Made by a program: the position numbers and the translations under genes. A model generated the notes under the pieces. It searched no databases, was not told the origin of the DNA, and saw only the letters and a list, made by a program, of their open reading frames with translations. 32,883 nt of DNA, from the NCBI GenBank assembly GCA_012270795.1, contig JAAXHO010000289.1:1-32883 (forward strand), read 5' to 3'. The stretch is from Candidatus Poribacteria bacterium (GTDB lineage Bacteria > Poribacteria > WGA-4E > WGA-3G). Below, piece after piece: positions 1 to 28,567 of this stretch. Every line of letters starts with the position of its first letter. Positions within the stretch are counted from its first letter, which is position 1.

Positions 1-150
1 GTAATTAACTGGCACAAGTCGTTATACGTTATAAGTCAAATAAAAATTACAGAAAAAACCACTTTTTTTACAAAAAATCTGCTTAAAATGTAAATTTCTT
101 AAGAAAATTCGTTTTTTTGCTAATATTCTGTTGTCTGAACCAAGATTTTT

Positions 151-318
151 GTCTGAACCAGGATTTTCAAATCAACGGTATGAATGCCTTTTGGCATTCC
201 CCGGGATTGGAGTTTGGTGCATTAGATTGCCATTCAAAAGTTGACATCAATCCTCACCACAAAACCTTGATGAGAAAAATCCTGGAAATTTATAAATCCT
301 GAAAATCCTGGTTCAGAT
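151..318. repeat. Palindromic repeat, family A (GTCTGAACC...GGTTCAGA ends)
   Basis: The left end GTCTGAACCAGGATTTTC and the right end GAAAATCCTGGTTCAGA are inverse complements. The same ends bound repeats at 5432-5581, 18591-18856 and 21426-21606. An extra partial left end (GTCTGAACCAAGATT) lies just before it at 133-150. The interior (GATTG-CATTCAAAAGTTGACAT) matches the copy at 21426. A micro-element interrupts the left arm at 168-203. A 61-codon open frame across this repeat has no ribosome site and is not a gene. Confidence 0.8.
168..203 (-). mobile_element. 36-bp hairpin-plus-tail micro-element, copy 1
   Basis: Read on the minus strand: GGGGAATGCC, loop AAAA, GGCATTC, then the tail ATACCGTTGATTTG. 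It interrupts a family A repeat. In the copy at 21426 the corresponding sequence runs from GGATTTTCAGGATTA into the GAGTTTGATACATTAG interior without this block. Three further copies are at 881-916, 14530-14566 and 21541-21577. Confidence 0.75.
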
Positions 319-684: not shown

Positions 685-880
685 GAATCCCACATACAAA
701 GGATCTGAGCAACGGCAAATGCCCAGATCTGACATTTTTAGGTTAGTTGAAAGATTCCTCCAAAACCCTGAATCTGCTATACATTTTTCATCGAGTTATC
801 ATGGGTATGAATGTGCAATAAAACGCACATCAACCCTGAAATGTTAAACGTAATACCAACATAGATGCAGAATACCATAC

Positions 881-916
881 GGGGAATGCTATATAGCATT
901 CATAACGTTGATTTGG
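881..916 (+). mobile_element. 36-bp hairpin-plus-tail micro-element, copy 2
   Basis: GGGGAATGCTATATAGCATT followed by CATAACGTTGATTTGG. It sits in the loop of a host hairpin whose arms are GCAGAATAC (867-875) and GTATTCTGC (918-926). The uninterrupted form of that hairpin is seen at 6962-6986. This copy's stem reads GCT/AGC where the others read GCC/GGC, a paired change that keeps the stem. Confidence 0.8.
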
Positions 917-981
917 CGTATTCTGCCGAATTCAAAAATCTAATTTATCAAACTTACGTTAATTCACTATAAATACATAAC

Positions 982-5252: not shown

Positions 5253-5431
5253 GAGTTTTGCTCCTATACAATATTAATGGTAACGTATTAGAACATAGTA
5301 GCAAAAATTGATATTCATGTCTACTGATCTGCATAAATCCGGGGTTATTTAGTTTTAGGTATTTTAGGTGAATATGTTAACATACGCTAATAAATAGATT
5401 GTATGTTTATTGTCGATTTGATGTTCCCTTT

Positions 5432-5581
5432 GTCTGAACCAAGATTTTCAGGATTTACAGATTACCAGGATTACCTCATCAATAGTTTTTGATACAGATT
5501 TATGCCAACTTATGAATGGTGCGTCCTACCTCAAACTCATAATCCTGAAAATCTGTAAATCCTGAAAATCCTGGTTCAGAC
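5432..5581. repeat. Palindromic repeat, family A, uninterrupted copy
   Basis: GTCTGAACCAAGATTTTCAG at the left and CTGAAAATCCTGGTTCAGAC at the right form an inverted pair of about 40 bp that includes TACAGATTACCAGGATT-like inner arms. It lacks both insertions seen in sister copies, so it shows the ancestral form: compare 18591-18856, which carries an extra ~116 bp after ACTTAT. It lies between the PhyH gene and the UPF0261 promoter. Confidence 0.8.
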
Positions 5582-5630
5582 AGCATGGTTGCAAAAAACT
5601 CTACACCCATCTGTATAAATCCGAATTGAC

Positions 5631-6905: not shown

Positions 6906-7040
6906 TGAAATCTAAAATCACTATTACATTGCGATTTCGGTAGGTGCGGTTTCCTAACCAATGCAGAATACCACACGCGTATTCTGCATTGGTTAGGAAA
7001 CCGCACCTACCGGGGAGTGTGCACATATTTTTAGATTTTA
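6901..7040. repeat. Palindromic repeat, family B, with a 33-bp perfect hairpin core
   Basis: The outer ends TATAGTGAAATCTAAAATCA and TTTTTAGATTTTAGTA are imperfect inverted repeats of the type also inserted at 18673-18789. The core at 6939-7011 is a perfect 33-bp stem (GGTAGGTGCGGTTTCC... with its exact complement) around a 7-base loop CACACGC. The innermost arms, GCAGAATAC/GTATTCTGC, equal those of the interrupted hairpin at 867-926. The element supplies the stop codon of the upstream gene. Confidence 0.75.
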
Positions 7041-14453: not shown

Positions 14454-14572
14454 GTAGGTCGGGTAGAACGCAGTGAAACCCGACACAATCGTATCCAGTC
14501 TCGCATGTCGGGTTTCGCAAGCTCTACCCGGGGAATGCCAATAAGGCATTCATACCGTTGATTTGGACCTAC
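14454..14572. repeat. REP-like palindrome (GTAGGTCGGGTAGA...) split by a micro-element
   Basis: GTAGGTCGGGTAGAACGC and GTGAAACCCGAC pair with GTCGGGTTTCGC and CTCTACCCG...GACCTAC. Removing the block at 14530-14566 restores CTACCCGACCTAC, the exact complement of the left arm. This resembles REP sequences associated with RAYT transposases in other bacteria, but no such gene is in the window. The rest of the 747-bp gap (14573-14753) shows nothing I can name. Confidence 0.7.
14530..14566 (+). mobile_element. 36-bp hairpin-plus-tail micro-element, copy 3
   Basis: GGGGAATGCC, loop AATAA, GGCATTC, tail ATACCGTTGATTTGG. It lies in the right arm of the REP-like palindrome at 14454-14572. The host sequence is complete on both sides when the block is removed, apart from one shared G. 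Confidence 0.85.
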
Positions 14573-14753: not shown

Positions 14754-17700
14754 ATGACACGCAACGATACCGAACTCATCCAACGCACCCTCACAGGCGA
14801 TGACAGCGCATTCTCATCCCTTTATGAAAAATATAAAAAGCAAGTTCACGCCCTTGCATGGAGAATTCTCGGTGATTTTCATCTCGCCGAAGAAATAACC
14901 TCAGACGCATTCCTGAAAGCATATAAAGAACTGCGTTCCTTGAAAGAACCCCAATGTTTTGGGAGTTGGTTGTCCGTTATCACAAGACGGTGTTGCATGG
15001 CGTGGCTACGAAAAAAACGTGTGCAGACAGAATCACTTGAGCATCTTCAAGAGAATGACAATGAACAATTAGAAGAAACATTATACTCTGAATATATCGT
15101 TGAAGAAAAGGAGCGAACAGTTGCAGAAGCAAAACGTACCGTTGTGAAAAAACTGCTTGCAAAACTACAGGAAAGTGACCGAACTGTCGTAACATTGCAT
15201 TACTTCGGGGAAATGTCGTGTTCAGAAATTGGCGAGTTTCTGGGTGTCTCCTCAAATACGATTAAAAGCAAACTTCGCCGCGCCAGACATAGACTCAAGC
15301 GGGAAGAACCCATGATTAGAGAAGCACTGGAACACTTCAAAATATCGCCCACTCTCAAGGATAACATCATGCAAGAGATTTCACAAACAGAACCCGCTGC
15401 ACCAACTGCAAGTAAACCCTTCATGCCATGGTTATTCGCTGCATCAACAGTTGTAGTCGTGTTGCTCATGTTAGGTTTTGGAAACAGCAAATTCTTGGCA
15501 CGTTTTCAGCAACCCTATAACTTTGAGGCAAACACAGAGACAACGGTTGATATTGTTGAAGCACCCATCATGGCAAAACTTGTGTTAGAACCCAATTTAC
15601 AGAAACAACTTGGCAATGTAAACGCACAAGACAATGAAGCAATTCCTGAACAGCAACCTAAGGAAAACTTACCTCTATCTAAAACAGTACAGGCAGATGG
15701 AACAGTACAACACTTTTCACAATGGAGATTACCGAAACATGCAAAAGCGCGTTTGGGGAAAGGGCGTATTACCACTATGCAGTTTTCACCAGATGGCAAC
15801 CAACTTGCACTCGGAAGTCCTATCGGTATCTGGCTATATGATGCCAATACAGGTAAGGAATTTCACCTATTCCCTGGTCCGTGCAGCTCACTCGCTTTTT
15901 CACCAGATGGACGTTACCTCGTAAACGGAGGTAGTACTTGGTTTACTGGTGGAAAATTCCAGATGTGGGATACCACGACTTTTTGTAAAGTGCCACTTAC
16001 TAAAATCCCTCCCAAATCAGTAGCGTTAGGATTCAATGAAGATGGCAAAACGCTTGTCAGCATTGCATCAGGAAATTACAGAAAAAGTGGAATCGATTCA
16101 ATAAGTACGATAAATCTTGACACTAAACAGGTAGATGTAAAGGATGTAAAAAAGCAACTTAGTTCACCATTGGAATATCCTAAAGTTTATGCACTAACGC
16201 AAGATAAATTTGCCGTTGGTGGAAAAAATGGTCTAATTAAGTTATGGGATATAGTATCTGGCAAAAAGGTATCCACCCTGGATGGACACGCAGAAATAAT
16301 AGGTATAGAAAACTATATTATAGCGTTGGCGTTTTCCCCCAATGGCACACGTCTTGCCAGTGGAAGCAGAGACAAAGCGGTACTACTATGGGACACCACT
16401 ACTGGCAACCAGTTACTCACACTCCAAAAACACAAGGGTGATACAAACGTATTAGCATTCTCCGCAGATGGAAAAATATTAGCGATCGGAAGTAATGATA
16501 CAACAGTCCAATTGTGGGATGCCACTACTGGTAAATCTCTCGCTACTTTCACTACACATATCGGTGCTGTAGCTGCATTAGCTTTTTCACCGGATAGCAG
16601 TACACTCGCTACTGCCAGCTCAGACGGCACCGTCCAGTTGTGGAATATTGAGACAAGGAAACCACTACCAACACGTATTACAGGACACACAGCACAGGTA
16701 CACACGACAGCTTTCTCTAAGGACAACTCTATACTTGCCAGTATCGCGGACAATGGTACACTGACTTTTTGGGATCTGAAAACATTACATAAACCCGAAG
16801 TCAATTCTATAAGTAGGTTCAGGTTCATGAGCATAAGAACAGGAAATACTTGGTTCCCATATTTCGCGTTTTCTGCTGATGGAACAAAAATCGCAAGTCC
16901 CCGTTTAGAAAACAATAAACGTGAATTTCAACCATTTCCTGGTCCTGGGCGACTAATCGCAGTGTGCAATGGGAAAATTCATTTAACTGATGTCTACACC
17001 GGACAAGAGTTGACAACTTTTACCTGCCGATTTAATACCATCAATTCCCTGTCAAAAATGGTGTTATCCCCTCATGGAAAAACATTAGCTGTCGGTGATG
17101 CTGGAATAATACACTTGTGGAAAACAAAGACCGGTGAAAAATATGAAATATATCTCGCAGATCCAGCGGAAAATCCACAAGAAATGTTTACCCTTTCCTA
17201 TTCACCTTTGTCAATCACTGCGTTAGTTTTCTCACCAGATGAAAAAAAACTTGTCAGTGGAACAATGAGCGGACGTGTACAGATGTGGGATGTGGAAACT
17301 GGAGATGAATTAACTACCCTCTTTGAAGGGTTGAACCTGGACGACACGTTAAAAATAAGAGAGGGTGGCGGAGATCGCTCCATTAGGGTAACCGGTAGGG
17401 AACCTATTAATGATCTGGCATTTTCGTCAAATGGAAACTTACTTGCTGTGAGTAATCAAAAACAAACCTTTTTGTTTGATACCAAGAAACAAACTCATAT
17501 TGATAAAATGAAGATGCCAAGCTCAGGTACTTTAGTGTTCTCACCCGATGATACCATGCTCATAACTGAATCAAACGGCAAAATCGTGTTATGGGATATG
17601 ATAACGGGAGACAAATTATCCACAATTGACGGAGATATGAATAGAGAGGGGAAGTTGGTGTTTTCGTCTGATAGCAAAAATTTGGCAAGCATAGAAGGTG

Positions 17701-18038
17701 GCGGCACAATACTCGTCTGGGATTGGGAAGCAATACGAAAAAATTCACTTGAAAACTATGACCCCTTAGAACAATTAAAAGAAAAAATAAACTCTATTAC
17801 TTCCCCAAGTTCTGAGCGCGGGACGTTTGCGAAAATTGCCAATTATGGAAAAAATACCAAAGACAAAGAGCGTTACATCTCTATGCTGAATCAAATAATT
17901 CAAGATATGTCAAACAAGTTGACCGTGCAATTAAATGCTACTCTCGTCTTGGCACAATTCTATCATGAAAACGGCATGCTTGAAAAAGCTGAAGAACTTA
18001 TACAAAAAACAGGTTCATCACTGAAGACCACTGGTTAA
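14754..18038 (+). CDS. Sigma factor fused to membrane helix and 14-blade WD40 domain
   Basis: 1,094 residues. Residues 1-182 are a full ECF-type sigma factor (region 2: HLAEEITSDAFLKAYKEL and FGSWLSVITRRC; region 4: SCSEIGEFLGVSSNTIKSKL). Residues ~223-243 (PFMPWLFAASTVVVVLLMLG) form one membrane helix. Residues ~338-995 hold about 14 WD40-type units ending in motifs such as IKLWDIVSG, VLLWDTTTG, VQLWDATTG and IVLWDMITG, enough for two seven-bladed propellers outside the membrane. A TPR-like stretch (LNATLVLAQFYHENGMLEKA) ends it. It looks like a membrane-tethered transcription factor with an external sensor; how the sigma part would be freed is unknown. The TAA at 18036 results from a -1 shift near an A6 run (18004-18009), and a further domain follows out of frame. 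Ribosome site AAGAGGTG. Confidence 0.88.
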   Translation: MTRNDTELIQRTLTGDDSAFSSLYEKYKKQVHALAWRILGDFHLAEEITSDAFLKAYKELRSLKEPQCFGSWLSVITRRCCMAWLRKKRVQTESLEHLQENDNEQLEETLYSEYIVEEKERTVAEAKRTVVKKLLAKLQESDRTVVTLHYFGEMSCSEIGEFLGVSSNTIKSKLRRARHRLKREEPMIREALEHFKISPTLKDNIMQEISQTEPAAPTASKPFMPWLFAASTVVVVLLMLGFGNSKFLARFQQPYNFEANTETTVDIVEAPIMAKLVLEPNLQKQLGNVNAQDNEAIPEQQPKENLPLSKTVQADGTVQHFSQWRLPKHAKARLGKGRITTMQFSPDGNQLALGSPIGIWLYDANTGKEFHLFPGPCSSLAFSPDGRYLVNGGSTWFTGGKFQMWDTTTFCKVPLTKIPPKSVALGFNEDGKTLVSIASGNYRKSGIDSISTINLDTKQVDVKDVKKQLSSPLEYPKVYALTQDKFAVGGKNGLIKLWDIVSGKKVSTLDGHAEIIGIENYIIALAFSPNGTRLASGSRDKAVLLWDTTTGNQLLTLQKHKGDTNVLAFSADGKILAIGSNDTTVQLWDATTGKSLATFTTHIGAVAALAFSPDSSTLATASSDGTVQLWNIETRKPLPTRITGHTAQVHTTAFSKDNSILASIADNGTLTFWDLKTLHKPEVNSISRFRFMSIRTGNTWFPYFAFSADGTKIASPRLENNKREFQPFPGPGRLIAVCNGKIHLTDVYTGQELTTFTCRFNTINSLSKMVLSPHGKTLAVGDAGIIHLWKTKTGEKYEIYLADPAENPQEMFTLSYSPLSITALVFSPDEKKLVSGTMSGRVQMWDVETGDELTTLFEGLNLDDTLKIREGGGDRSIRVTGREPINDLAFSSNGNLLAVSNQKQTFLFDTKKQTHIDKMKMPSSGTLVFSPDDTMLITESNGKIVLWDMITGDKLSTIDGDMNREGKLVFSSDSKNLASIEGGGTILVWDWEAIRKNSLENYDPLEQLKEKINSITSPSSERGTFAKIANYGKNTKDKERYISMLNQIIQDMSNKLTVQLNATLVLAQFYHENGMLEKAEELIQKTGSSLKTTG

Positions 18039-18505: not shown

Positions 18506-18590
18506 CGACTTTGGATACGCAAGGTTATTTATGGTGGATTATACAATTAATTCTACATTATATTAAATGATTTTATTTGATATTCCCTTT

Positions 18591-18856
18591 GTCAGAACCA
18601 GGATTTACAGGATTTACAGATTACCAGGATTACCTCATCAATAGTTTTTTGACACAAATTTATGCTAACTTATATAGTAAAATCTATAATTATTTACACA
18701 TTTTGCACCTGCCTGATCTCCCCTCGCTTGCGGGGGGATAAAGGGGGGGTAGTCTTTCGTATGTAAACTTAATTGTGGATTCTACAATAAATGGTGCGTA
18801 ATACCTAAAACTCATAATCCTGAAAATCTGTAAATCCTGAAAATCCTGGTTCAGAC
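18591..18856. repeat. Palindromic repeat, family A, carrying a nested ~116-bp element
   Basis: The ends GTCAGAACCAGGATTTACAG and GAAAATCCTGGTTCAGAC match the uninterrupted copy at 5432-5581 over most of their length. After ACTTAT an extra block is present before AATGGTGCG resumes. This repeat fills most of the 404-bp gap before the redoxin array. Confidence 0.8.
18673..18789. mobile_element. Family B element inserted in a family A repeat
   Basis: The ends TATAGTAAAATCTATAATTA and TTGTGGATTCTACAATA are imperfect inverted repeats like those of 6901-7040. The core is CCCCTCGCTTGCGGGGGG. Comparison with 5432-5581 shows the block is an insertion, possibly with a TA at each side, though the exact ends cannot be fixed by eye. 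Confidence 0.65.
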
Positions 18857-18909
18857 AAGTAACCAAAACTTTACACACCCTTTTACAAACAAAATATAGG
18901 AGAACCATA

Positions 18910-21330
18910 ATGTTCGATAAATACGATTCAACAGACTTCTGGTACATCTTCATCAACTCACTCTATAACTTCGGGCTCGCTTCAGGAAAAGGTGGATTGG
19001 AGATGGATGAAGAAACGCAGGAAAAACTCCTCCTTTACCTCAAAGAAAAAATTGAGGAAGGAGTAACGCATGGCGAAACTGCACTCCCTCCCGGCCTCCA
19101 CAACTACTTTTGGCGATTCTCAGAAGATATCCTGTCAAAAATACAAACATTAGTAGAAGGTTTTCTCAAGTCAGACCCCGACAACAGCGCAGCATCCATG
19201 ATGTTCACATTAATAAAACGCGCAAATTGGGAAACCCAACGCCCCTCCCTCTTGGACACTAATATAGAGACAATTCCAAATGACCCGTGTATGAATTTAG
19301 CAATTATTGACGAATATAGAAGTAGCCACGGTGGTTTTGGAGATTTCAAAAAACAGGTTGTTATTCTCAAGGTACTTGAAAACCTATATTTGTGGGCAAA
19401 ACAACAAGACAATACTGCTCGTTATCAGGAAGCAAGAGCATTTTATATGCAGCATCGGATAACCCCTTACACAGTGTATAAGCACTTAAAAGAAGGACTT
19501 CAGCGTTTTAAACAGCACTTTGAAGAGACAGCAAGCTTAGAAAATAAGACCTCCGTAAATGGTAAATATAAATTAGAAATTAAAAAGTGTAGAGATTTGG
19601 TGTCTATGGAAAATGCTGCATTCCGAAGAAATTTTGGGCAACAATCAAAGGACCAGCAAGACTTAACCGATGCAATATCTCATAATACAGATATATGGAA
19701 AACATATCTGAAATCCCTTGAAAAGCGTAAAAATGCACCGCCAAGAAGACTTTCCCAGAAAGACCAAGAACAACTGCTAAAGCACCTGAAAACGAAAATT
19801 GAAGCAGGGGTTGTTGATGGCAAAACTACCCTACCCGCAAACCTTTATAAACACATCTCAGACTTTCCTGAAGCAATGCATCTGGAACTTCGTGAATTTA
19901 CTGAAGAAGTGTTTGAAGCACAGCCAGAAAACGGTGCCGCTGTGAAAATGTTAGCAACAATTGTGTGGGACGGTAAATGGATCAGTTATGGTGAATCGGA
20001 TAGTGAACTTACCTTGCTTGAAAAAGCGATGGTCTTGATACCCAACGATCCTGAAACCTGCTTTTTTGCTATTAGTCATTACGATGACTCCTACGATCCT
20101 TTGTTTAAAATGACACTCACTGCACTTGAAAGATTGTTTGAAAGAGCAAAACAGCAAGATGAATCAAACTTGTCCAGCTGGTTGACAAAACTCTATAAAG
20201 AATTAGGCAAAACGCCTTGCTATATCTATCGTTCACTAATGGACAATCCTGATGAAAATGCCGAACTTATCAAAAAATGTAAACCGTTGATAACTGAAAT
20301 GCAACAGGCATTTCAACAAAAACTTGCTCATGAACCTAAAGACTGGCACGCATTACGAGGACTGAGTGATGTCTACGAAGCACTCGGTGAAACGGAATTA
20401 GCTCTGAAGCATCCGTGGCAACCCCATTCAGAATTTAGATGGAAACAAGAAGCATGGGTCGGAAAACAACTTCCAGATTTTTCTACCGTTGCTATGGATG
20501 GTACACCTATAACTTTCTCGGATTACCGTGGCAAAATGTTGGTGCTAAATTTCTGCGCAAAGTCATGTGGTTTTTGTCCGCCAGAAATTCCATACCTCAA
20601 AGATGTTTATGAAGAATATCACAACAAAGGATTAGAGGTTATCGGTGTGAGCCTGGATAATAACGAAACAGAAATTCGCGAGTTTACTGATGAACACCAG
20701 ATACCTTGGCTACAAATCTATGATGGAAAAGGATGGAAAAGTGAACTTGCACAGTTTTTCGGCATTAACAGTGTCCCTTCACAGTGGTTAATTGACCGAG
20801 ATGGGAAAATTCTCTCAGTGGATACAAGAAAAGAACAACTAAGTCAACTTGTCAAGTGGGCAGAGATCACACGATTAAATAACGTTATCCCCGATTTTAC
20901 CGCAGTTGATGTAGAAGGAAGTCCTATTACTGCCACTGCCCTTCAAGGAAAAGTTGTCCTACTCCACTTTGGTTACATACATGAACAAGAACGCACTGAC
21001 ATTGATGCACTGCACAAAAAACATCACGAAAAAGGGTTTGAGATAATTGGTATCAATATAGGCGGATGGGTAGACGAAGAAGCACTACGCAATGTTGTTC
21101 ACAGACAAAAATATAAAGGACACTTCATTTATGCCGATAGTGACGGAAAGCACGCTGCACTTGCTGAACAGTTCGGTTTCGGGCACGGTTCAGGAAGTCG
21201 TAAAGTTGACCTGCCTGCCTACATCCTTATTGATACCGAAGGAAAGGTCATTGAAGCACGTTCTGGAAAAGTACATTCACCCGAAGTCTGGACAGCAAGA
21301 TTGGAAAAACTTATTACACAAAATCTATAG
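18910..21330 (+). CDS. Multidomain redoxin 1: two helical modules, two thioredoxin folds
   Basis: 806 residues, intact, the full form of the family. Module 1 (~5-215: STDFWYIFINSLYNFGLASG ... LYLKEKIEEGV) and module 2 (~258-500: TYLKSLEKRKNAPPRR ... HLKTKIEAGVVDGKTTLP) are copies of one helical unit, followed by a TPR-like HALRGLSDVYEALGETELA. Redoxin domain 1 (~520-650) carries SCGFC (C553, C556) where sister proteins have WCGFC or WCGPC, with an extra cysteine at 549. Redoxin domain 2 (~658-806) keeps the fold (VIPDFTAVDVEGSPI, YILIDTEGKV) but its active-site loop (LLHFGYIHEQERT) has no cysteine. No signal peptide. Probably a cytosolic disulfide or peroxide protein; the modules may bind partners. 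Ribosome site TAGGAGAACCATA is shared by the array. Confidence 0.85.
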   Translation: MFDKYDSTDFWYIFINSLYNFGLASGKGGLEMDEETQEKLLLYLKEKIEEGVTHGETALPPGLHNYFWRFSEDILSKIQTLVEGFLKSDPDNSAASMMFTLIKRANWETQRPSLLDTNIETIPNDPCMNLAIIDEYRSSHGGFGDFKKQVVILKVLENLYLWAKQQDNTARYQEARAFYMQHRITPYTVYKHLKEGLQRFKQHFEETASLENKTSVNGKYKLEIKKCRDLVSMENAAFRRNFGQQSKDQQDLTDAISHNTDIWKTYLKSLEKRKNAPPRRLSQKDQEQLLKHLKTKIEAGVVDGKTTLPANLYKHISDFPEAMHLELREFTEEVFEAQPENGAAVKMLATIVWDGKWISYGESDSELTLLEKAMVLIPNDPETCFFAISHYDDSYDPLFKMTLTALERLFERAKQQDESNLSSWLTKLYKELGKTPCYIYRSLMDNPDENAELIKKCKPLITEMQQAFQQKLAHEPKDWHALRGLSDVYEALGETELALKHPWQPHSEFRWKQEAWVGKQLPDFSTVAMDGTPITFSDYRGKMLVLNFCAKSCGFCPPEIPYLKDVYEEYHNKGLEVIGVSLDNNETEIREFTDEHQIPWLQIYDGKGWKSELAQFFGINSVPSQWLIDRDGKILSVDTRKEQLSQLVKWAEITRLNNVIPDFTAVDVEGSPITATALQGKVVLLHFGYIHEQERTDIDALHKKHHEKGFEIIGINIGGWVDEEALRNVVHRQKYKGHFIYADSDGKHAALAEQFGFGHGSGSRKVDLPAYILIDTEGKVIEARSGKVHSPEVWTARLEKLITQNL

Positions 21331-21425
21331 TCGTAGCACAATCTGCATGAAGATTAATTTATTAATTCGGTAATTTCTTGTTTTTGTAATTTTTTTAGAA
21401 TAGTTGGGTAGTATACCTGTTCTTT

Positions 21426-21606
21426 GTCTGAACCAGGATTTTCAGGATTACCAGATTTTCAGGATTAGAGTTTGATACATTAGATTGTCATTCAAAAGTT
21501 GACATAAATACTTATCAAAAAACATTGATGCGGTAATCCCGGGGAATGCCTAAATGGCATTCATACCGTTGATTTGGTAATCTGATAATCTTGTCCTGGT
21601 TCAGAC
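21426..21606. repeat. Palindromic repeat, family A, split by a micro-element
   Basis: GTCTGAACCAGGATTTTCAG at the left and TTGTCCTGGTTCAGAC at the right. The inner sequence (ATTAGATTGTCATTCAAAAG) matches the copy at 151-318. A 37-bp block at 21541-21577 is inserted near the right arm. The repeat occupies most of the 351-bp gap between redoxins 1 and 2. Confidence 0.8.
21541..21577 (+). mobile_element. 36-bp hairpin-plus-tail micro-element, copy 4
   Basis: GGGGAATGCC, loop TAAAT, GGCATTC, tail ATACCGTTGATTTGG. GGTAATC stands both just before it (21534-21540 region) and just after it (overlapping its last GG), which could be a target duplication or chance. Confidence 0.85.
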
Positions 21607-21681
21607 AACAGAGAACATAACAACCCAGAATAGATTCAAATCATTCAAATTAGCCTATATGGATAAATTAGGAGAAACATA

Positions 21682-23604
21682 ATGTTCGATAAATACGATT
21701 CAACAGACTACTGGTACACATTCCTCAACTCACTTGATAGCCTCGGACTCACAATAAAAAGTGGCATATCAGAAATTGACGAAGAGATGCAAGAAAAACT
21801 CCTCACTTATTTCAAAGAAAAAATTGAAGCAGGAGTTACCAACGGGGAAACCGCACTCCCACCAAGCCTGTCAGACTACTGTTGGCGTTTGCCAAAGGAG
21901 ATGTTACCAAAACTTCGGTCCTTAGCAGAAAGTTTCCTTGACACTGATCCCCAAAACGGACCAGCAGCCGTGCTATTGGCAAATGTTGCCTATACCGACT
22001 TAGGAAGTAGTGAATCATTGCCGTTTGTAGAAAAAGCATTAACACTGGTACCAAAAGATCCATGCCTGAATTTGCTTATGATTTACAAACATAGACGGTA
22101 CTATGGTGGTGCAAAAATTGTAGAAGTGCAAGAAACGATTCTCACTGTGCTTGAAAACGTATTGGAGTGGACAAACCGACAAGATAATTCTGCACGCTTT
22201 CAAGATGCAAGATCTTTCTATTTTCGACAGGGGGTAACCCCCTATTCAGTTTACACAAACCTTAAATCAATCGAGGCACGATGGGAAAAGAAAGAAAAAG
22301 TTGAGGTTGTTAAAAAATGCAAAGAGGAAATTGAAAAATGCCGCACTTTGATATACACAGAACAGGAAACGTTTCATAGGGAGGCAATTCAAGCGTCAGA
22401 AGAACAACCAATCATAGTCAATGAATCACCCGAAAATGTAAATTTTTGGGAAGCATTCCTTGATACACTGATAGAACGTGGTCTCTCAACCCCAAGATGG
22501 GTACTTACCAAAAATGTTCAAGATCAACTACTGAAATACTTCAAAACGAAAATAAAAGAAGGCGTTACTGATGGATTAACGACATTACCATCGGACCTTC
22601 CTGAGTATGTTCCACGCTTTCCCAAGGCAATGCATTTAGAACTCCGGGAATTCGCTGAAGAAATGCTTGAAAAACAACCAGAGAACGGTGCTGCAGCAAA
22701 AATGTTAGCCATCGTTGTAGAAAAGAATGATAATCCAAACTCAATTCGGTTAGGAAATCCATTCATCGAACCGGCAGTGCAGTTGGTACCGAACGACCCA
22801 GAAATCTGCTTTTTTGCAATGAGCAGTAACAGGGGACTTGATGAATTGTCCCTACTGGAAAAATTGTTCAATGGGGCACAATCGCAGGGTAAAACCGAAT
22901 TGTTCCGTTGGTTAGCAAAATTATACAAAGAGGTAGGCACAACCCCTTGTCATATCTATCGTAATCTGATGAAAAAGCCAGATGAAAACGCTGAGTTGAT
23001 TAAGCGGTGTAAGCCGCTGATTGAACAAGCACAGCAAGCCTTCCAGCAACGTCTTGAAGAAGTACCCGATGATTGGTATGCATTACGCGGACTCGGTGAT
23101 ATCTATGAAGCCTTGGGCGAAACCGAATTGGCACAAAAATATCCGTGGGAGGGGCATTCAAATATAGAAACTGTGTGGAATCAGAAAGCATGGGTAGGTA
23201 GAAAACTACCAGATTTTTCAGCAACCACTCATGATGGCACACCAATATCTGGATCAGATTACCACGGCAAAATGTTAGTGCTAAACTTCTGTGCAAAGTG
23301 GTGCGGGTTCTGCGCGTCAGAAATACCACATCTCAAAAAAGTCTATGAGGAATATCACGACAAAGGACTTGAGATTATTGGGGTGAGTCTTGATGAAAAC
23401 GAGGCAGAACTTCAAGAATATATCAAAGAGAACGACATACCGTGGCCACAAGTTTTTGATGGCAAAGGCTGGAATACAGAACTTGCCCGGTATTTCGGTA
23501 TCATTAGTCTCCCATCACAGTGGCTCATTCATCGGGATAGAACGATCATCTCTGTAGACACAAGAGGTGAACAACTTGGTCAACTCGTTGAACAGTTGAT
23601 ATAA
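21682..23604 (+). CDS. Multidomain redoxin 2: two helical modules, one thioredoxin fold
   Basis: 640 residues, intact. Module 1 (~5-215) and module 2 (~250-470) match redoxin 1. The phrase YKEVGTTPCHIYRNLMKKP and the TPR-like DWYALRGLGDIYEALGETELA precede a redoxin domain (~505-640) with active site WCGFC (C541, C544), an extra cysteine at NFCAK, and a cis-proline loop in IISLPSQWLI. It stops after this domain (QLGQLVEQLI), so the second, cysteine-free redoxin domain of redoxin 1 is absent. Its first 30 residues are almost the same as those of the broken third copy, which suggests recent duplication or conversion. Ribosome site TTAGGAGAAACATA. Confidence 0.85.
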   Translation: MFDKYDSTDYWYTFLNSLDSLGLTIKSGISEIDEEMQEKLLTYFKEKIEAGVTNGETALPPSLSDYCWRLPKEMLPKLRSLAESFLDTDPQNGPAAVLLANVAYTDLGSSESLPFVEKALTLVPKDPCLNLLMIYKHRRYYGGAKIVEVQETILTVLENVLEWTNRQDNSARFQDARSFYFRQGVTPYSVYTNLKSIEARWEKKEKVEVVKKCKEEIEKCRTLIYTEQETFHREAIQASEEQPIIVNESPENVNFWEAFLDTLIERGLSTPRWVLTKNVQDQLLKYFKTKIKEGVTDGLTTLPSDLPEYVPRFPKAMHLELREFAEEMLEKQPENGAAAKMLAIVVEKNDNPNSIRLGNPFIEPAVQLVPNDPEICFFAMSSNRGLDELSLLEKLFNGAQSQGKTELFRWLAKLYKEVGTTPCHIYRNLMKKPDENAELIKRCKPLIEQAQQAFQQRLEEVPDDWYALRGLGDIYEALGETELAQKYPWEGHSNIETVWNQKAWVGRKLPDFSATTHDGTPISGSDYHGKMLVLNFCAKWCGFCASEIPHLKKVYEEYHDKGLEIIGVSLDENEAELQEYIKENDIPWPQVFDGKGWNTELARYFGIISLPSQWLIHRDRTIISVDTRGEQLGQLVEQLI

Positions 23605-23621
23605 CCCAAGTTCCTACAACC

Positions 23622-23709
23622 TATCTCATAAATGGTAGCAGGGGTTTCTAACCCCGATTTACCAAAAACACGATTCGGTGAATTTAGACAAAATCGCATT
23701 TATGAGATA
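23622..23709. repeat. Palindromic repeat, family E
   Basis: TATCTCATAAATGGTAG at the left and GCATTTATGAGATA at the right, with an AGGGGTTTCTAACCCCGATT core. Close copy of 14015-14102. Directly before it stands TAACCCAAGTTCCTAC, a lone left end of family D. Confidence 0.75.
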
Positions 23710-24016
23710 CACTGTAAATACTTCATTCTTCGCAAAAATTCGTAACACTAACTAACATATCTTTCTGAATCTGATATTCAAAATATAGGAGAACCATAAT
23801 GTTCAATAAATTCAATTCAACAGACTTCTGGTACACATTCCTCAACTCACTTGACAACCTCGGACTCACAATAAAAAGTGGCATATCAGAAATTGACAAA
23901 AAGATGCAGAAAAACTCCTTACCTATTTCAAAGAAAAAATTGATGAAGGAGTTACCGACGGGGAAACCGCACTCCCCCCAAGCCTGTCAGACTATTGTTG
24001 GCGTTTACCAAAGGAG

Positions 24017-25909
24017 ATGCTGCCAAAGTTACGGTCATTAGCTGAAAGCTTTCTTAATACTGATCAAGATAACGGCACAGCACTTGCATTATTAGCAAAT
24101 GTTGCTTATACAGAGATGCAGTTCAGTGAGGCTTTTCCGTTAGTGGAAAGAGCTTTAACAATACTGCCCAAAGATCCAGGTTTGAATCTGCTCTTAATAA
24201 ATAAGTACAGGAAAAGCCACGGTTCTTACGGACCCATTGATGCGTTTCCAATTATTTTCGCTGCACTTGAAAACATATTTGAGTGGGCAAAACAACAAGA
24301 TAATTCGGCACGCTATCATGAAGTGAGATATTTCTATCACCGACATAGAGTAACACCCTATTCAATATATACACGTCTAAAATCGTTCAATCAGCGATAT
24401 TGGGAAAAACGAGAAGGGGATAGGATTAGCCAAATAGGTGAAGATGGCATTAAGAAATGTAGAGATTTGATAGCGGTAGAACAAACGGCATTTTATAAAT
24501 TAATAGAAGAAGCCGACGACCCAATCATCTTCAAGGATGAAACATCTGAGAATACCGATTTTTGGGAGGCTTATCTGAATACATTACAAGACCGTGGACT
24601 TGCAGTACCCAGATGGAAATTAACACCCAAAATACAAGAAAAACTACTGTCTTACTTCAAGACAAAAATAGAAGCAGGGGTTATTGACGGCCTGACAATG
24701 TTACCATCACAACTTCCGAAGTACGTTCCACTGTTCCCTGACACAATGCTGCTGGAACTAAGAGAATTTGCTGAAGAAGTATATGATAAACAGCCTGAAA
24801 ACGGTGCTGCAGCAAAAATGTTAGCACTAATTGAGCAGAACGGTTACAATCCATTTAATGAACAAGCAATAACTTTGGTACCTAACGACCCAGAAATTTG
24901 CTTTTATGTAATCAGATACAATATTTCACTTACGTTACTTGAAAAGCTATTTGAAAGATCACAACGACAAAGTAAATCAGAATTGTACCATTGGTTAGTA
25001 AAACTTTACAAAGAGATAGGTACAACGCCATGTGTTAGTTACCGGAAGTTGATGAAATATCCAAAGGAAAATGCAGAATTAATTGCAAGATATAAAGCAT
25101 TGATTGTGCAAGCACAAAAAGTATTTGAGCAGCGTCTGGAACACGAACCCAATGACTGGTATGCATTACGCGGACTCGGGGATATTTATGAAACGTTAGG
25201 CAAAACGAAATTAGCACAACAATATCCATGGAAACCGCAATATCCATGGAAACCGCCTGCCGAAAACAGATGGGCACAGCAAGCATGGATAGGACGACAG
25301 ATGCCTGATTTTAGTGCTGTTGCACTTGATGGCACACCAATATCTGGATCAGATTACCACGGCAAAATGTTGGTGCTTAATTTCTGTGCAAAGTGGTGCG
25401 GTTTCTGTGCCCCAGAAATTCCTTACCTCAAAAAAGTCTATGAGGAACATCACGACAAAGGATTAGAGGTTATCGGTGTCAGTCTGGATGAAAGCGAAGC
25501 GGAACTGCGTGAATATATTGAGGAACATGAAATTCCGTGGCTACAGATTTTTGAGGGCAAAGGTTGGAAAAGTGAACTTGCACAGTATTTTGGTGTAACC
25601 AAGGTGCCTTCCCAGTGGCTTATTGACCGAGATGGAAAAATAATCTCTGTGGATACAAGAAAAGAACAACTTGACCAACTCGTGAAATGGACTGAAGCAA
25701 CGCGGGTTGGAAACGTAATCCCAGAATTCTCCGCAGTTGATGTAAATAGAAAACCTATATCACCTTCGGCATTTCAAGGGAAAGTTGTCCTACTCTATTT
25801 TTGGACAAGCCAAGATTACTGTGAAAAAGAATTAACTTATATTGACACAGTCTATCAAAAATACCACACCAAAGGATTTGACATTATCGGTGTCAACATC
25901 GCAGGATAG
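24017..25909 (+). CDS. Main open part of broken redoxin 3
   Basis: 630 residues from an internal ATG (MLPKLRSLAESFLNTD) with no separate purpose-built leader, though CAAAGGAG happens to precede it, so translation from here is conceivable. It contains the end of module 1, all of module 2, the TPR-like stretch, the WCGFC redoxin domain and the first part of the second redoxin domain (LLYFWTSQDYCEKEL). If translated from here it would still make a complete first redoxin domain. Confidence 0.55.
   Translation: MLPKLRSLAESFLNTDQDNGTALALLANVAYTEMQFSEAFPLVERALTILPKDPGLNLLLINKYRKSHGSYGPIDAFPIIFAALENIFEWAKQQDNSARYHEVRYFYHRHRVTPYSIYTRLKSFNQRYWEKREGDRISQIGEDGIKKCRDLIAVEQTAFYKLIEEADDPIIFKDETSENTDFWEAYLNTLQDRGLAVPRWKLTPKIQEKLLSYFKTKIEAGVIDGLTMLPSQLPKYVPLFPDTMLLELREFAEEVYDKQPENGAAAKMLALIEQNGYNPFNEQAITLVPNDPEICFYVIRYNISLTLLEKLFERSQRQSKSELYHWLVKLYKEIGTTPCVSYRKLMKYPKENAELIARYKALIVQAQKVFEQRLEHEPNDWYALRGLGDIYETLGKTKLAQQYPWKPQYPWKPPAENRWAQQAWIGRQMPDFSAVALDGTPISGSDYHGKMLVLNFCAKWCGFCAPEIPYLKKVYEEHHDKGLEVIGVSLDESEAELREYIEEHEIPWLQIFEGKGWKSELAQYFGVTKVPSQWLIDRDGKIISVDTRKEQLDQLVKWTEATRVGNVIPEFSAVDVNRKPISPSAFQGKVVLLYFWTSQDYCEKELTYIDTVYQKYHTKGFDIIGVNIAG
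25220..25255 (+). repeat. Perfect 18-bp tandem duplication inside redoxin 3
   Basis: CAATATCCATGGAAACCG occurs twice in a row, adding QYPWKP in frame just before the redoxin domain. Sister genes have the phrase once (KYPWE, HPWQP). Confidence 0.9.
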
Positions 25910-26193
25910 CAAAACGAAGAAGATTTTCACCAATTACTCAGTGAGAAAAACTATCAAGGACACCATATCTACGATGGAGGCAAATTGAAACAAGGACCAC
26001 TTGCTCAGCAATTTGCCGTTCAAGAAATCCCTTCACTTCTACTGATTGATACGAATGGAAAGATCATTGAAGCACGATCTGGAAAAATCCATTCACCTGA
26101 AGTATGGGCTGCGCGGTTGAAAGAACTTGTGGCAACGCATCTATAGAGGATGTGTAGGCATTTTATAGTACTCAATTTAGGAGAACAATTATA

Positions 26194-26592
26194 ATGGAAA
26201 AATACAATTCAACAGATTTCTGGTATACGTTCCTCAATTCACTCTACAACTTCGGACTCGCATCAGGTAGGGGTAAATTGGAGATGGATGAAGATATGCA
26301 GGAAAAATTCCTTACCTATCTCCAAACAAAGATTGAAGAAGGTGTGACAGATGGACAAACAGCACTTCCCCCTGGTCTTCACGATTACTATTGGCGGTTT
26401 CCAAAAGAGTTGCTGCCAAAACTACGCGCATTAGCTAAAGGTTTTCTTGAAACAGCCCCAGAAAATGCTGCCGCAAATATAATTTTGGCAAACATAGCAT
26501 GGACAGAAAGAGACTCTGAATACCAGACACACATAGATATCGCTGTGCAATTGGTACCGAGAGAGACCCAGGATCGAATTTATTTATCATAA
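26194..26592 (+). CDS. N-terminal fragment of redoxin 4
   Basis: 132 residues, with module 1 from WYTFLNSLYNFGLASGRG to DIAVQLVPR. The last residues, from ETQDRIYLS, come from the wrong frame after the GA expansion. It has the array's normal ribosome site, so a short protein could be made. Confidence 0.5.
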   Translation: MEKYNSTDFWYTFLNSLYNFGLASGRGKLEMDEDMQEKFLTYLQTKIEEGVTDGQTALPPGLHDYYWRFPKELLPKLRALAKGFLETAPENAAANIILANIAWTERDSEYQTHIDIAVQLVPRETQDRIYLS

Positions 26593-26924
26593 ACGAATTC
26601 CACTATAACTCTTTAGACCGAGCAACTGATGGAGAAGAATTATTCCTCACTGTACTTGAAAACCTATATGAATGGGCAAAAAAAGAAGGTCCGACTAATC
26701 GTTATAAAGACGTAAAGTCAGCTTATGAGCACATCGGTAGAAGCCCAGGCACAGTATATGGAAGGTCAAAGAAAAAGCTGTTGAAACTCAAGAAAAACCC
26801 CGACAATCCAGAAAACCAAAAGGAACGTAGAGACCAAATTGAAAAATATAATGCTCGGATTAAAAGATGTAAAGATTTGTTTCATGAGGAACATGCAGCG
26901 TTCTAAAAAGAATCGCTTCAAGAA

Positions 26925-28106
26925 TTGGATGAACAGCAAGACTTTGGAAATCCAACTTCCGAAAAGATTGATTTTTGGGAGACCTATCTCAATTCACTTG
27001 ATAACCATGAACTCTCAAGTCGCAATTGGAAACTCACACCCAAAATCCAAGCACAACTTCTAACGTATTTCAAGACCCGTATTGGGGTCGGTGTTGTTGA
27101 TGGGAAGACGGTTTTACCAGCGGAACTACAGAAGTACATCTCACGTTTTCCAAGAGTGATGCGTATAGAACTTCGAGAATTCGCTGAAGAGACACTCGAA
27201 AAACAACCGAACAACGGAGCTGCAGCAAAGATATTGGCATTTCTTGTAGAAGATAAAGAATTCCCATACCTTGAACAAGCAATAGAGTTGTTACCAAACG
27301 ACGCAGAAATGTGCTTCTCCGCAATAAAACGATACGGCGATAATGATAATGCCTTCTTTGAACGCACGCTGCCAACACTTGAAAAGTTGTATACATGGGC
27401 ACAGCAGCATGGCGGCTCCGAATTGTACGAATGGCTTGCAAAACTTTACAAAGAGATCGGCAGAACGCCTTGCCATATCTATCGAAAACTGATGCAACAC
27501 CCAGAGGCAAATGCTGAAATGATTGCAATCTGCAAACCACTGATTACGCAAGCAGAACAAGCGTTTCAGCAAAGACTTGAAAAAGAACCTGACGACTGGT
27601 ATGCATTACGCGGACTCGGTGATATCTATGAAACATTAGGTCAAACAGATGAGGCACAAAAATATCCATGGGAACACCATCTAGAGTTTAAATGGAGTAG
27701 AAAAGCCTGGGAAGGATTAGAAATTCCCAATTTTTCAGCAACCACACTTGACGGTAAACCGATTTCTATTACTGATTACCGAGGTAAAATGGTGCTACTC
27801 AACTTCTGTGCAAAATGGTGTGGTCCCTGTAAAGGAGAAATACCTTATATCAAACAGGTATACGAAGAACATCACAAGAACGGTTTTGAAGTTATCAGTG
27901 TAAGTTTAGATGATAGCGAAGCAGAACTGAGGGAACATATAGAAAATTATGATATTCCTTGGCTCCAGATTTTTGATGGAAAAGGTTGGAAAAATGATCT
28001 CGCTCAGTATTTTGGTATAAATAGTATTCCTTCTACGTGGCTCATTGACCGCAATGGAAAAATCATTTCTGTCGATTCCAGGGGAGATAGTTTGGTTCAA
28101 AAGTAA
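26925..28106 (+). CDS. Central fragment of redoxin 4 (module 2 and WCGPC redoxin)
   Basis: 393 residues, open from just after the TAA at 26904. It holds module 2 (WETYLNSLDNHELSSRNWKL ... PNDAEMCFSAI), the TPR-like DWYALRGLGDIYETLGQTDEA and a complete redoxin domain with NFCAKWCGPC. No good ribosome site precedes ATG 26925, so translation would need re-initiation. The final codons after DSLVQ are out of frame with the sister genes. Confidence 0.5.
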   Translation: MDEQQDFGNPTSEKIDFWETYLNSLDNHELSSRNWKLTPKIQAQLLTYFKTRIGVGVVDGKTVLPAELQKYISRFPRVMRIELREFAEETLEKQPNNGAAAKILAFLVEDKEFPYLEQAIELLPNDAEMCFSAIKRYGDNDNAFFERTLPTLEKLYTWAQQHGGSELYEWLAKLYKEIGRTPCHIYRKLMQHPEANAEMIAICKPLITQAEQAFQQRLEKEPDDWYALRGLGDIYETLGQTDEAQKYPWEHHLEFKWSRKAWEGLEIPNFSATTLDGKPISITDYRGKMVLLNFCAKWCGPCKGEIPYIKQVYEEHHKNGFEVISVSLDDSEAELREHIENYDIPWLQIFDGKGWKNDLAQYFGINSIPSTWLIDRNGKIISVDSRGDSLVQK

Positions 28107-28138
28107 ATTGGACAGAATCATCGCGGGTTGGTGATACG

Positions 28139-28567
28139 GTGCCAGATTTTTCTGCAGTTGATATAGATGGAAATCCTATATCACCTACTACATTCCGCGG
28201 GAAAGTTGTCCTGCTTTATTTAGGTTTTCCCGAACAATTGCTAAATGATGTGGAACCAATATATCGGAAATATCATCCAAAGGGATTTGAAGTAATTTGT
28301 GTCAGCATATTCTCGCATTCAAACGAAGACAAATTCCGCACCAGAGTCCGCAAAGAAAACTTACTCGGGCAACATATTTATGATTGTCATGACTGGAACG
28401 GTCCGTTAGCACAGCAATTTGGCACTGCTTTCTGGCGTTTACGTCCAGCAATTGTATTGATTGATAAAGATGGAAAGATTATTATGTCCCGCTACGAAGA
28501 TGTGCATTCTCATGAAGCTTGGATGGCAAAATTGGAAGAACTTGTGGCAACACATCTTAGACTGTGA
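28139..28567 (+). CDS. C-terminal fragment of redoxin 4 (second redoxin domain)
   Basis: 142 residues beginning VPDFSAVDIDGNPISPTTFR from a GTG, the second redoxin domain of the family. The active-site loop is LLYLGFPEQLLNDVEP with no CxxC, as in redoxin 1. No ribosome site. It is separated from the preceding fragment by a one-base shift near 28090 and is really its tail. Confidence 0.5.
   Translation: MPDFSAVDIDGNPISPTTFRGKVVLLYLGFPEQLLNDVEPIYRKYHPKGFEVICVSIFSHSNEDKFRTRVRKENLLGQHIYDCHDWNGPLAQQFGTAFWRLRPAIVLIDKDGKIIMSRYEDVHSHEAWMAKLEELVATHLRL

Follow-up and report, generated by a model that had tools for sequence, protein, structure and literature searches.

A probably mobile hairpin unit of 34-35 bp nested in intergenic repeats of Candidatus Poribacteria

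The DNA analyzed in this study (the window) is the whole 32,883-nt contig C132 of a Candidatus Poribacteria MAG, whose genome comprises 5.18 Mb in 298 contigs. It includes a gene at 14754-18038 for a protein of 1094 aa that contains many WD40 repeats and is of the kind reported for Poribacteria as eukaryote-like repeat proteins (PMC3909097), and large AhpC/TSA (redoxin-like) genes at 18910-28561, which form tandem diverged copies with repeated segments ~2-2.7 kb apart. Rfam matches in the window were limited to two tRNAs, and the unit described below matched no known RNA family in this search.

Four copies of a short hairpin-plus-tail unit were found in the window, each within a host repeat (Table 1). 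A search for GGCATTCATACCGTTGATTTG with up to 3 mismatches recovered exactly four places, where 0 were expected from 100 shuffles, and these were the places at which a preliminary description had noted a block of ~36 bp. The same copies were identified as full units by a covariance model trained on 35 distinct units (60.6, 53.8, 51.4, and 50.6 bits for copies 1, 2, 3, and 4, respectively), while all other matches in the window scored below 20 bits. The hairpin and tail of the block were retained but its limits were revised: the unit starts one base earlier, measures 34-35 bp, and leaves the final TG to the host in the cleanest sites.

Each copy had been thought to split a different host palindrome. 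The hosts are indeed split and can be rebuilt, but copy 1 and copy 4 both lie in the AATCC-TG (GTTCAGACA-ended) family, which leaves three host types; unit-free members of this family occur at 5431-5582 and 18589-18858. The intact GCAGAATAC/GTATTCTGC hairpin exists in the window as claimed, although at 6963-6987 and not at 6962-6986, and the paired change from GCC/GGC to GCT/AGC in the stem of copy 2 is real. For the host of copy 3, an intact form of CTACCCG+GACCTAC had been proposed, whereas the filled/intact pair gave CTACCC-GACCTAC; the own-genome comparison yielded six filled/intact pairs for the intact CTACCCGACCTAC form. Some of the host sites are hairpins, but not all are hairpin loops, and the AATCC-TG site is located in a direct-repeat tract.

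Table 1. Copies of the unit and associated host repeats in the window.
Feature	Position	Strand	Sequence and evidence
Unit copy 1	170..203	-	CGGGGAATGCCAAAAGGCATTCATACCGTTGATT; insertion AATCC^TGAAAATCC; pattern search, intact-host pair, covariance model
Unit copy 2	880..913	+	CGGGGAATGCTATATAGCATTCATAACGTTGATT, stem variant GCT/AGC; pattern search, covariance model
Unit copy 3	14529..14563	+	CGGGGAATGCCAATAAGGCATTCATACCGTTGATT; pattern search, intact-host pair, covariance model
Unit copy 4	21540..21574	+	CGGGGAATGCCTAAATGGCATTCATACCGTTGATT; insertion at AATCC^T; pattern search, intact-host pair, covariance model
Host repeat around copy 1, AATCC-TG (GTTCAGACA-ended) family	131..317		
Host repeat around copy 4, AATCC-TG family like that of copy 1	21410..21610		
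Host hairpin GCAGAATAC...GTATTCTGC, split by copy 2	867..926	+	intact relative at 6963-6987
Perfect inverted repeat (34-bp), unit-free, containing the intact copy 2 host hairpin (6963-6987)	6938..7012		
Host repeat GCTCTACC...GACCTAC, split by copy 3	14521..14572	+	intact CTACCCGACCTAC elsewhere in the genome

The consensus of the unit consisted of CGGK, a 7-bp stem enclosing a loop of 4-5 nt, and a 3' tail of ATACCGTTGATT. Its ends can also pair, as CGGT is complementary to ACCG; a bulge of 2 nt and a tail of 6 nt then stay unpaired. The fetched DNA contained 266 distinct ATACCGTTGATT-like tails, and a hairpin was present directly upstream of 215 of them; these hairpins mostly had 7 bp and a loop of 4 or 5 nt, and they were preceded by CGGG or CGGT. 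The stems GAATGCC, GAACGCC, GAATGCT, GAATGAC, CTATGCC, TCATGCC, GAAGCCC, GAAGTCC, and AAAGCCT were each seen with their complement. Among the 35 distinct units, two-sided changes were present at five of 11 pairs and amounted to 29 cells, compared to 3.9 in shuffles and at most eight in slid-structure controls; membership in this set required at least six of seven stem pairs, which favors pairing, whereas the survey of 266 tails required the tail only. Invariant columns included the two G of the 5' end, nearly all of the 3' ATACCGTTGATT, and the ATA columns. As single-stranded DNA, the unit folded at -7.2 to -10.3 kcal/mol, with z-scores of -3.3 to -5.5 relative to shuffles. The fold and the ends of the unit are conserved while the sequence of the stem is free to vary.

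In its own genome, the unit was identified in 293 copies at up to 3 mismatches, compared to 0 for a reversed-pattern control, and the copies do not share one flank. The majority of the units examined (67 of 75) were outside ORFs of at least 90 aa. Coding genes were considered as a readout of the junctions and set aside, as the six ORF overlaps were taken to be spurious ORFs over repeats. In G046, a genome with one complete chromosome, 39 units were on the plus and 22 on the minus strand; the GC skew was noisy and the replichores were not resolvable.

The occurrence of the unit varied sharply among related taxa, in a sample with one genome per species, whose assemblies are fragmented and often end at repeats. 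CATACCGTTGATTT was found in every genome of the genus (18 of 18), with 12 to 253 occurrences per genome, and was patchy in the sister genus g4 (0 to 104 per genome), while genomes elsewhere in the phylum had at most one. The covariance model recovered the same two genera plus a single match elsewhere (G018). Within g4, its counts, which are lower bounds once ~80-100 is reached, ranged from zero in G049, G050, and G072 to at least 80 in G065, G070, G071, G073, and G078. Exact matches in named genome records, among the matches listed, were all in Candidatus Poribacteria MAGs. A single IMG/VR match was dismissed as a viral copy, as it reads as chance and is in an apparent coding region. A limited literature search found no description of the unit in Poribacteria.

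Comparison with intact, unit-free relatives of the hosts allowed the junctions to be read directly. A spanning intact relative was found for 57 of 75 own-genome units, in a search that covered 413 kb of the genome and with some of the 57 matches being weak. In the best filled/intact pairs, the identical flank bases numbered 79/80, 78/80, 78/80, 77/80, and 76/78, and the indel was exactly the unit. The filled site in the cleanest pairs equals the empty site plus CGGGGAATGCC-loop-GGCATTCATACCGTTGATT (34-35 bp), positioned before a T, as in GTAGG^TGCGG, GTAGG^TCGGG, GCGACC^TGGAGG, GCGACC^TCCTGG, AATCC^TG, and ACACC^TATGGG. No target duplication was observed at the unit junctions of the filled/intact pairs. 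A second set of hosts (CTACC-C-GACC, CACA-C-GCG, and others) carried the unit plus TG in place of one host base, which may represent a second junction type or host variation.

The flanks of the unit fell into 46 classes, several of which were large (24-32 members) and others unique. Over these classes, the filled sites followed A(27) C(29) C(29) ^ T(41) G(33) G(29), a consensus partly made by the junction itself. Most insertions are at RCC^T(GG) or AGG^T, and the placement of the unit relative to its target is fixed. The resemblance of CCTGG to a Dcm-type site raised a mismatch-repair nick as the entry point, an idea that was set aside because the consensus is partly produced by the junction. 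Among the genomes compared, no orthologous site was polymorphic for the unit alone. No orthologous pairs were present among the fetched loci, and for the loci of the window the intergenic DNA of relatives was too diverged for orthologous comparison.

Insertion of the unit was associated with other repeats. Units were located in a repeat with an intact paralogue more often than random noncoding points were (76% versus 45%; odds ratio 3.8, p=5e-7). The preference for host repeats is real, although nearly half of the noncoding DNA itself consists of repeats. Two insertion positions were found within one REP family, and several AATCC^TG positions within one host family. Units within units were seen as well. 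A lengthened TTGATT tail was present in 11 of 15 units directly behind another hairpin-ATACC and 10 of 12 directly behind another tail, compared to 10 of 173 single units, which is the pattern predicted if a unit enters another that is already in place. The converse was also observed, as a REP-like repeat of ~110 bp with TTAATCTTCAT arms is inserted in the loop of the unit at L113:2275-2424 and likewise in L036, L067, and L029, so that nesting runs the other way too.

An empty site in another genome was identified for a host repeat. At the L200:17491 gene pair of the own genome, the unit is inserted at GTAGG^TGCGG inside a repeat of ~126 bp, which is bounded by ACCAAATT/AATTTGGT and has ATAAT on both sides. 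G038 has a single ATAAT at this position, and several other relatives have a short spacer only. For the ~126-bp host repeat, the G038 locus provides a clean empty site at the orthologous position, with the unit absent together with its host, and the unit either came with the repeat or arrived later. Empty sites, which the preliminary description had proposed to look for in related strains, were hence found as intact paralogous hosts within the genome, while the empty site across genomes was that of the host repeat and not of the unit alone. The ~126-bp repeat itself (L200:17450-17590, also in L303) is palindromic and MITE-like, with a GTAGG-TGCGGTTTCCTAACCGCACC core, and is present in the own genome and not in G038.

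The unit was present in high copy number and in many unrelated hosts, with precise junctions, a covarying stem between fixed ends, and nested copies. We consider it probable that it is a non-autonomous mobile hairpin of 34-35 bp, which inserts precisely and without duplication by means of an enzyme acting in trans. It would move as a folded single strand recognized by its ends and fold, would often enter other intergenic repeats as well as the unit itself, and may be multiplied further by the copying of host repeats in which it resides. A part of the copies certainly spread together with their hosts, and the independent insertions are therefore fewer than the copies. The preliminary description of a mobile unit that is very small and nests in other repeats is borne out to this extent by the rebuilt hosts and the number of flank classes. 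That the unit is itself immobile, having been inserted a few times and then carried along by host repeats, has a low probability: the large flank classes and the joint absence of unit and host at the G038 locus speak for such passengers, but the unique classes, the multiple positions within single host families, and the units within units speak against them. Still less probable, to the point of being very doubtful, is a spread in which a small hairpin RNA is reverse-transcribed. Precise insertion without duplication would suit this route, and tails with one to three TTGATT repeats are reminiscent of those at the 3' end of non-LTR retroelements; however, nesting explains most of the long tails, and RVT_1 was undetected in G037, G041, G044, G045, G046, G065, G070, and G073, copy-rich genomes among them.

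The enzyme had been suggested to be of the IS200/IS605 or RAYT type, which the present results did not support. In the former case, the unit would be what is left of one end of an IS200/IS605 element, in the manner of a MITE, and an IS200-type TnpA would move it. This appears unlikely, even though insertion without target duplication, the hairpin near one end, and the IS200-type Y1 genes in most genomes (Y1_Tnp in 74 of 85) are consistent with it. Unit and Y1 numbers were hardly correlated in the genus (rho 0.12), and G043, at 94% completeness, has 132 copies and no Y1_Tnp match, where a loss of Y1 after the spread of the unit is possible. In addition, the right junctions vary by one base, between insertion before T and replacement of a base by the unit plus TG, a variation that a strict Y1 cut would not produce. 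In the latter case, the unit would be a REP moved by a RAYT (TnpA-REP), as its other strand reads AATCAACG-GTAT-palindrome, with GTAT in the place of GTAG. Its size, palindrome, tag position, intergenic location, and copy number match those of REPs (PMC8266576, PMC3733652), and RAYTs were above the cut-off in 39 of 59 genomes of the family. The own genome has one as well (NF047646), which scores 90.9 bits in a frame of 142 aa and shows one in-frame stop over a longer match. We nevertheless regard this reading as rather improbable. The tag is GTAT rather than GTAG; no RAYT above the curated cut-off was detected in G030, G038, G043, G045, and G046, while the strong RAYTs of G042 and G031 go along with few copies; and rho between unit and RAYT numbers in the genus was -0.06, with RAYT counts taken by reading the match list. 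Among 84 Y1/RAYT loci scanned (some overlapping), GTAG palindromes were within 500 bp at 22, whereas the unit was within ~1 kb of only three or four distinct loci and bracketed none, which also answers the proposal of a transposase with the unit at its own ends. The RAYT of the own genome (L127, G000:C141:5719-6105) adjoins repeats of the GTAGGAGCGACC type, which are likely its cognate REP family and serve as a host of the unit. The resident RAYT, going with GTAG-type REPs, is not supported as the enzyme of the unit. Cleavage by TnpA-REP involves the GTAG tag, which may also direct the choice of site (PMC8266576), and a relative of this logic with a GTAT tag is possible despite the RAYT distribution.

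Other sources of an enzyme were also considered. The window contains none, as the preliminary description had observed, and searches for Y1/RAYT, IS110, and reverse transcriptase genes found none for the unit. An IS110/IS1111 origin found no support, as a DEDD transposase was present in 0 of 59 genomes. Likewise, lone heads and tails of the unit, examined as possible ends of a larger autonomous element, led only to REP-like loop inserts or composite hairpins. Tentatively, the unit might be a 34-bp hairpin among the smallest free-moving DNA units of bacteria, recognized through its fold and short fixed ends, and its enzyme might belong to none of the Y1/RAYT, IS110, and reverse-transcriptase families.

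Several known systems resemble the unit. The small dispersed repeats (SDRs) of cyanobacteria (Elhai et al. 2008) are reported to be mobile sequences of ~20-30 bp found inside other repeats, and they are not known to have an enzyme. The unit, also very small, dispersed, and inserted in other repeats, is likened to SDRs by these traits; in contrast to them, it belongs to another phylum, and its fold covaries between fixed ends. SDRs are cited in PMC3116915 and PMC2884548. REPs are, like the unit, palindromes of 20-50 nt with an adjacent tetranucleotide, intergenic, and present in hundreds of copies, and those of the CGTC type share its 4-5 nt loops, short tail, and lack of a known transposase (PMC3733652, PMC8266576). 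Some REPs lie inside other palindromes (PMC3733652). The unit differs in its CGGK tag (GTAT on the other strand), its fixed 12-nt 3' tail, its directly readable junctions and target, and its frequent insertion into GTAG-type repeats and itself. It was not classified as a REP because the palindrome has GTAT on one strand and CGGK on the other in place of GTAG, the 5' motif is CGGG/CGGT rather than CGTC, and no RAYT gene is flanked by the unit or tracks its abundance. MITEs are similarly non-autonomous and multicopy, but the unit is far smaller and has neither a target site duplication nor terminal inverted repeats beyond CGGT/ACCG. The GC clusters of yeast mitochondria (GC42) are mobile hairpins of ~40 bp that are merged and shuffled by an unsettled mechanism, but they occur in organelle DNA with AG or ACT flanking direct repeats, whereas the unit has no target duplication (PMC4478555). 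Repetitive hairpin elements of sponge mitochondria are likewise short, recurrent in intergenic DNA, and without a known enzyme, but they are found in organelle DNA, and their link to the unit is only that Poribacteria live in sponges (PMC2800124). By analogy, the unit may work like REPs, SDRs, and mitochondrial GC clusters (PMC3733652, PMC8266576, PMC3116915, PMC4478555).

For these three systems, the movement of units of 20-40 bp has long been a puzzle. In Poribacteria, the unit, its target, exact junctions, intact hosts, and covariation of the fold are visible together with a distribution that switches sharply between presence and absence among related species, and the spread within g4, from none to at least 80 copies, makes a presence/absence search for the responsible gene feasible. 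Additionally, nested insertions provide a relative order of repeat families in an uncultured phylum.

Variants of the unit were also noted. In one lineage (RHO3_bin_69), the tails of L031, L072, L078, and L120 read TTGATTCTGATTTTGATTCTG, with a tail repeat of 6 nt rather than 8 nt. Composite elements with CGGGG and ATACCGTTGATT ends were found at L204:3017-3120, L084, L036:4112 (-), L094, and L101, and their two-hairpin middle occurs in both orientations, as if inverted.
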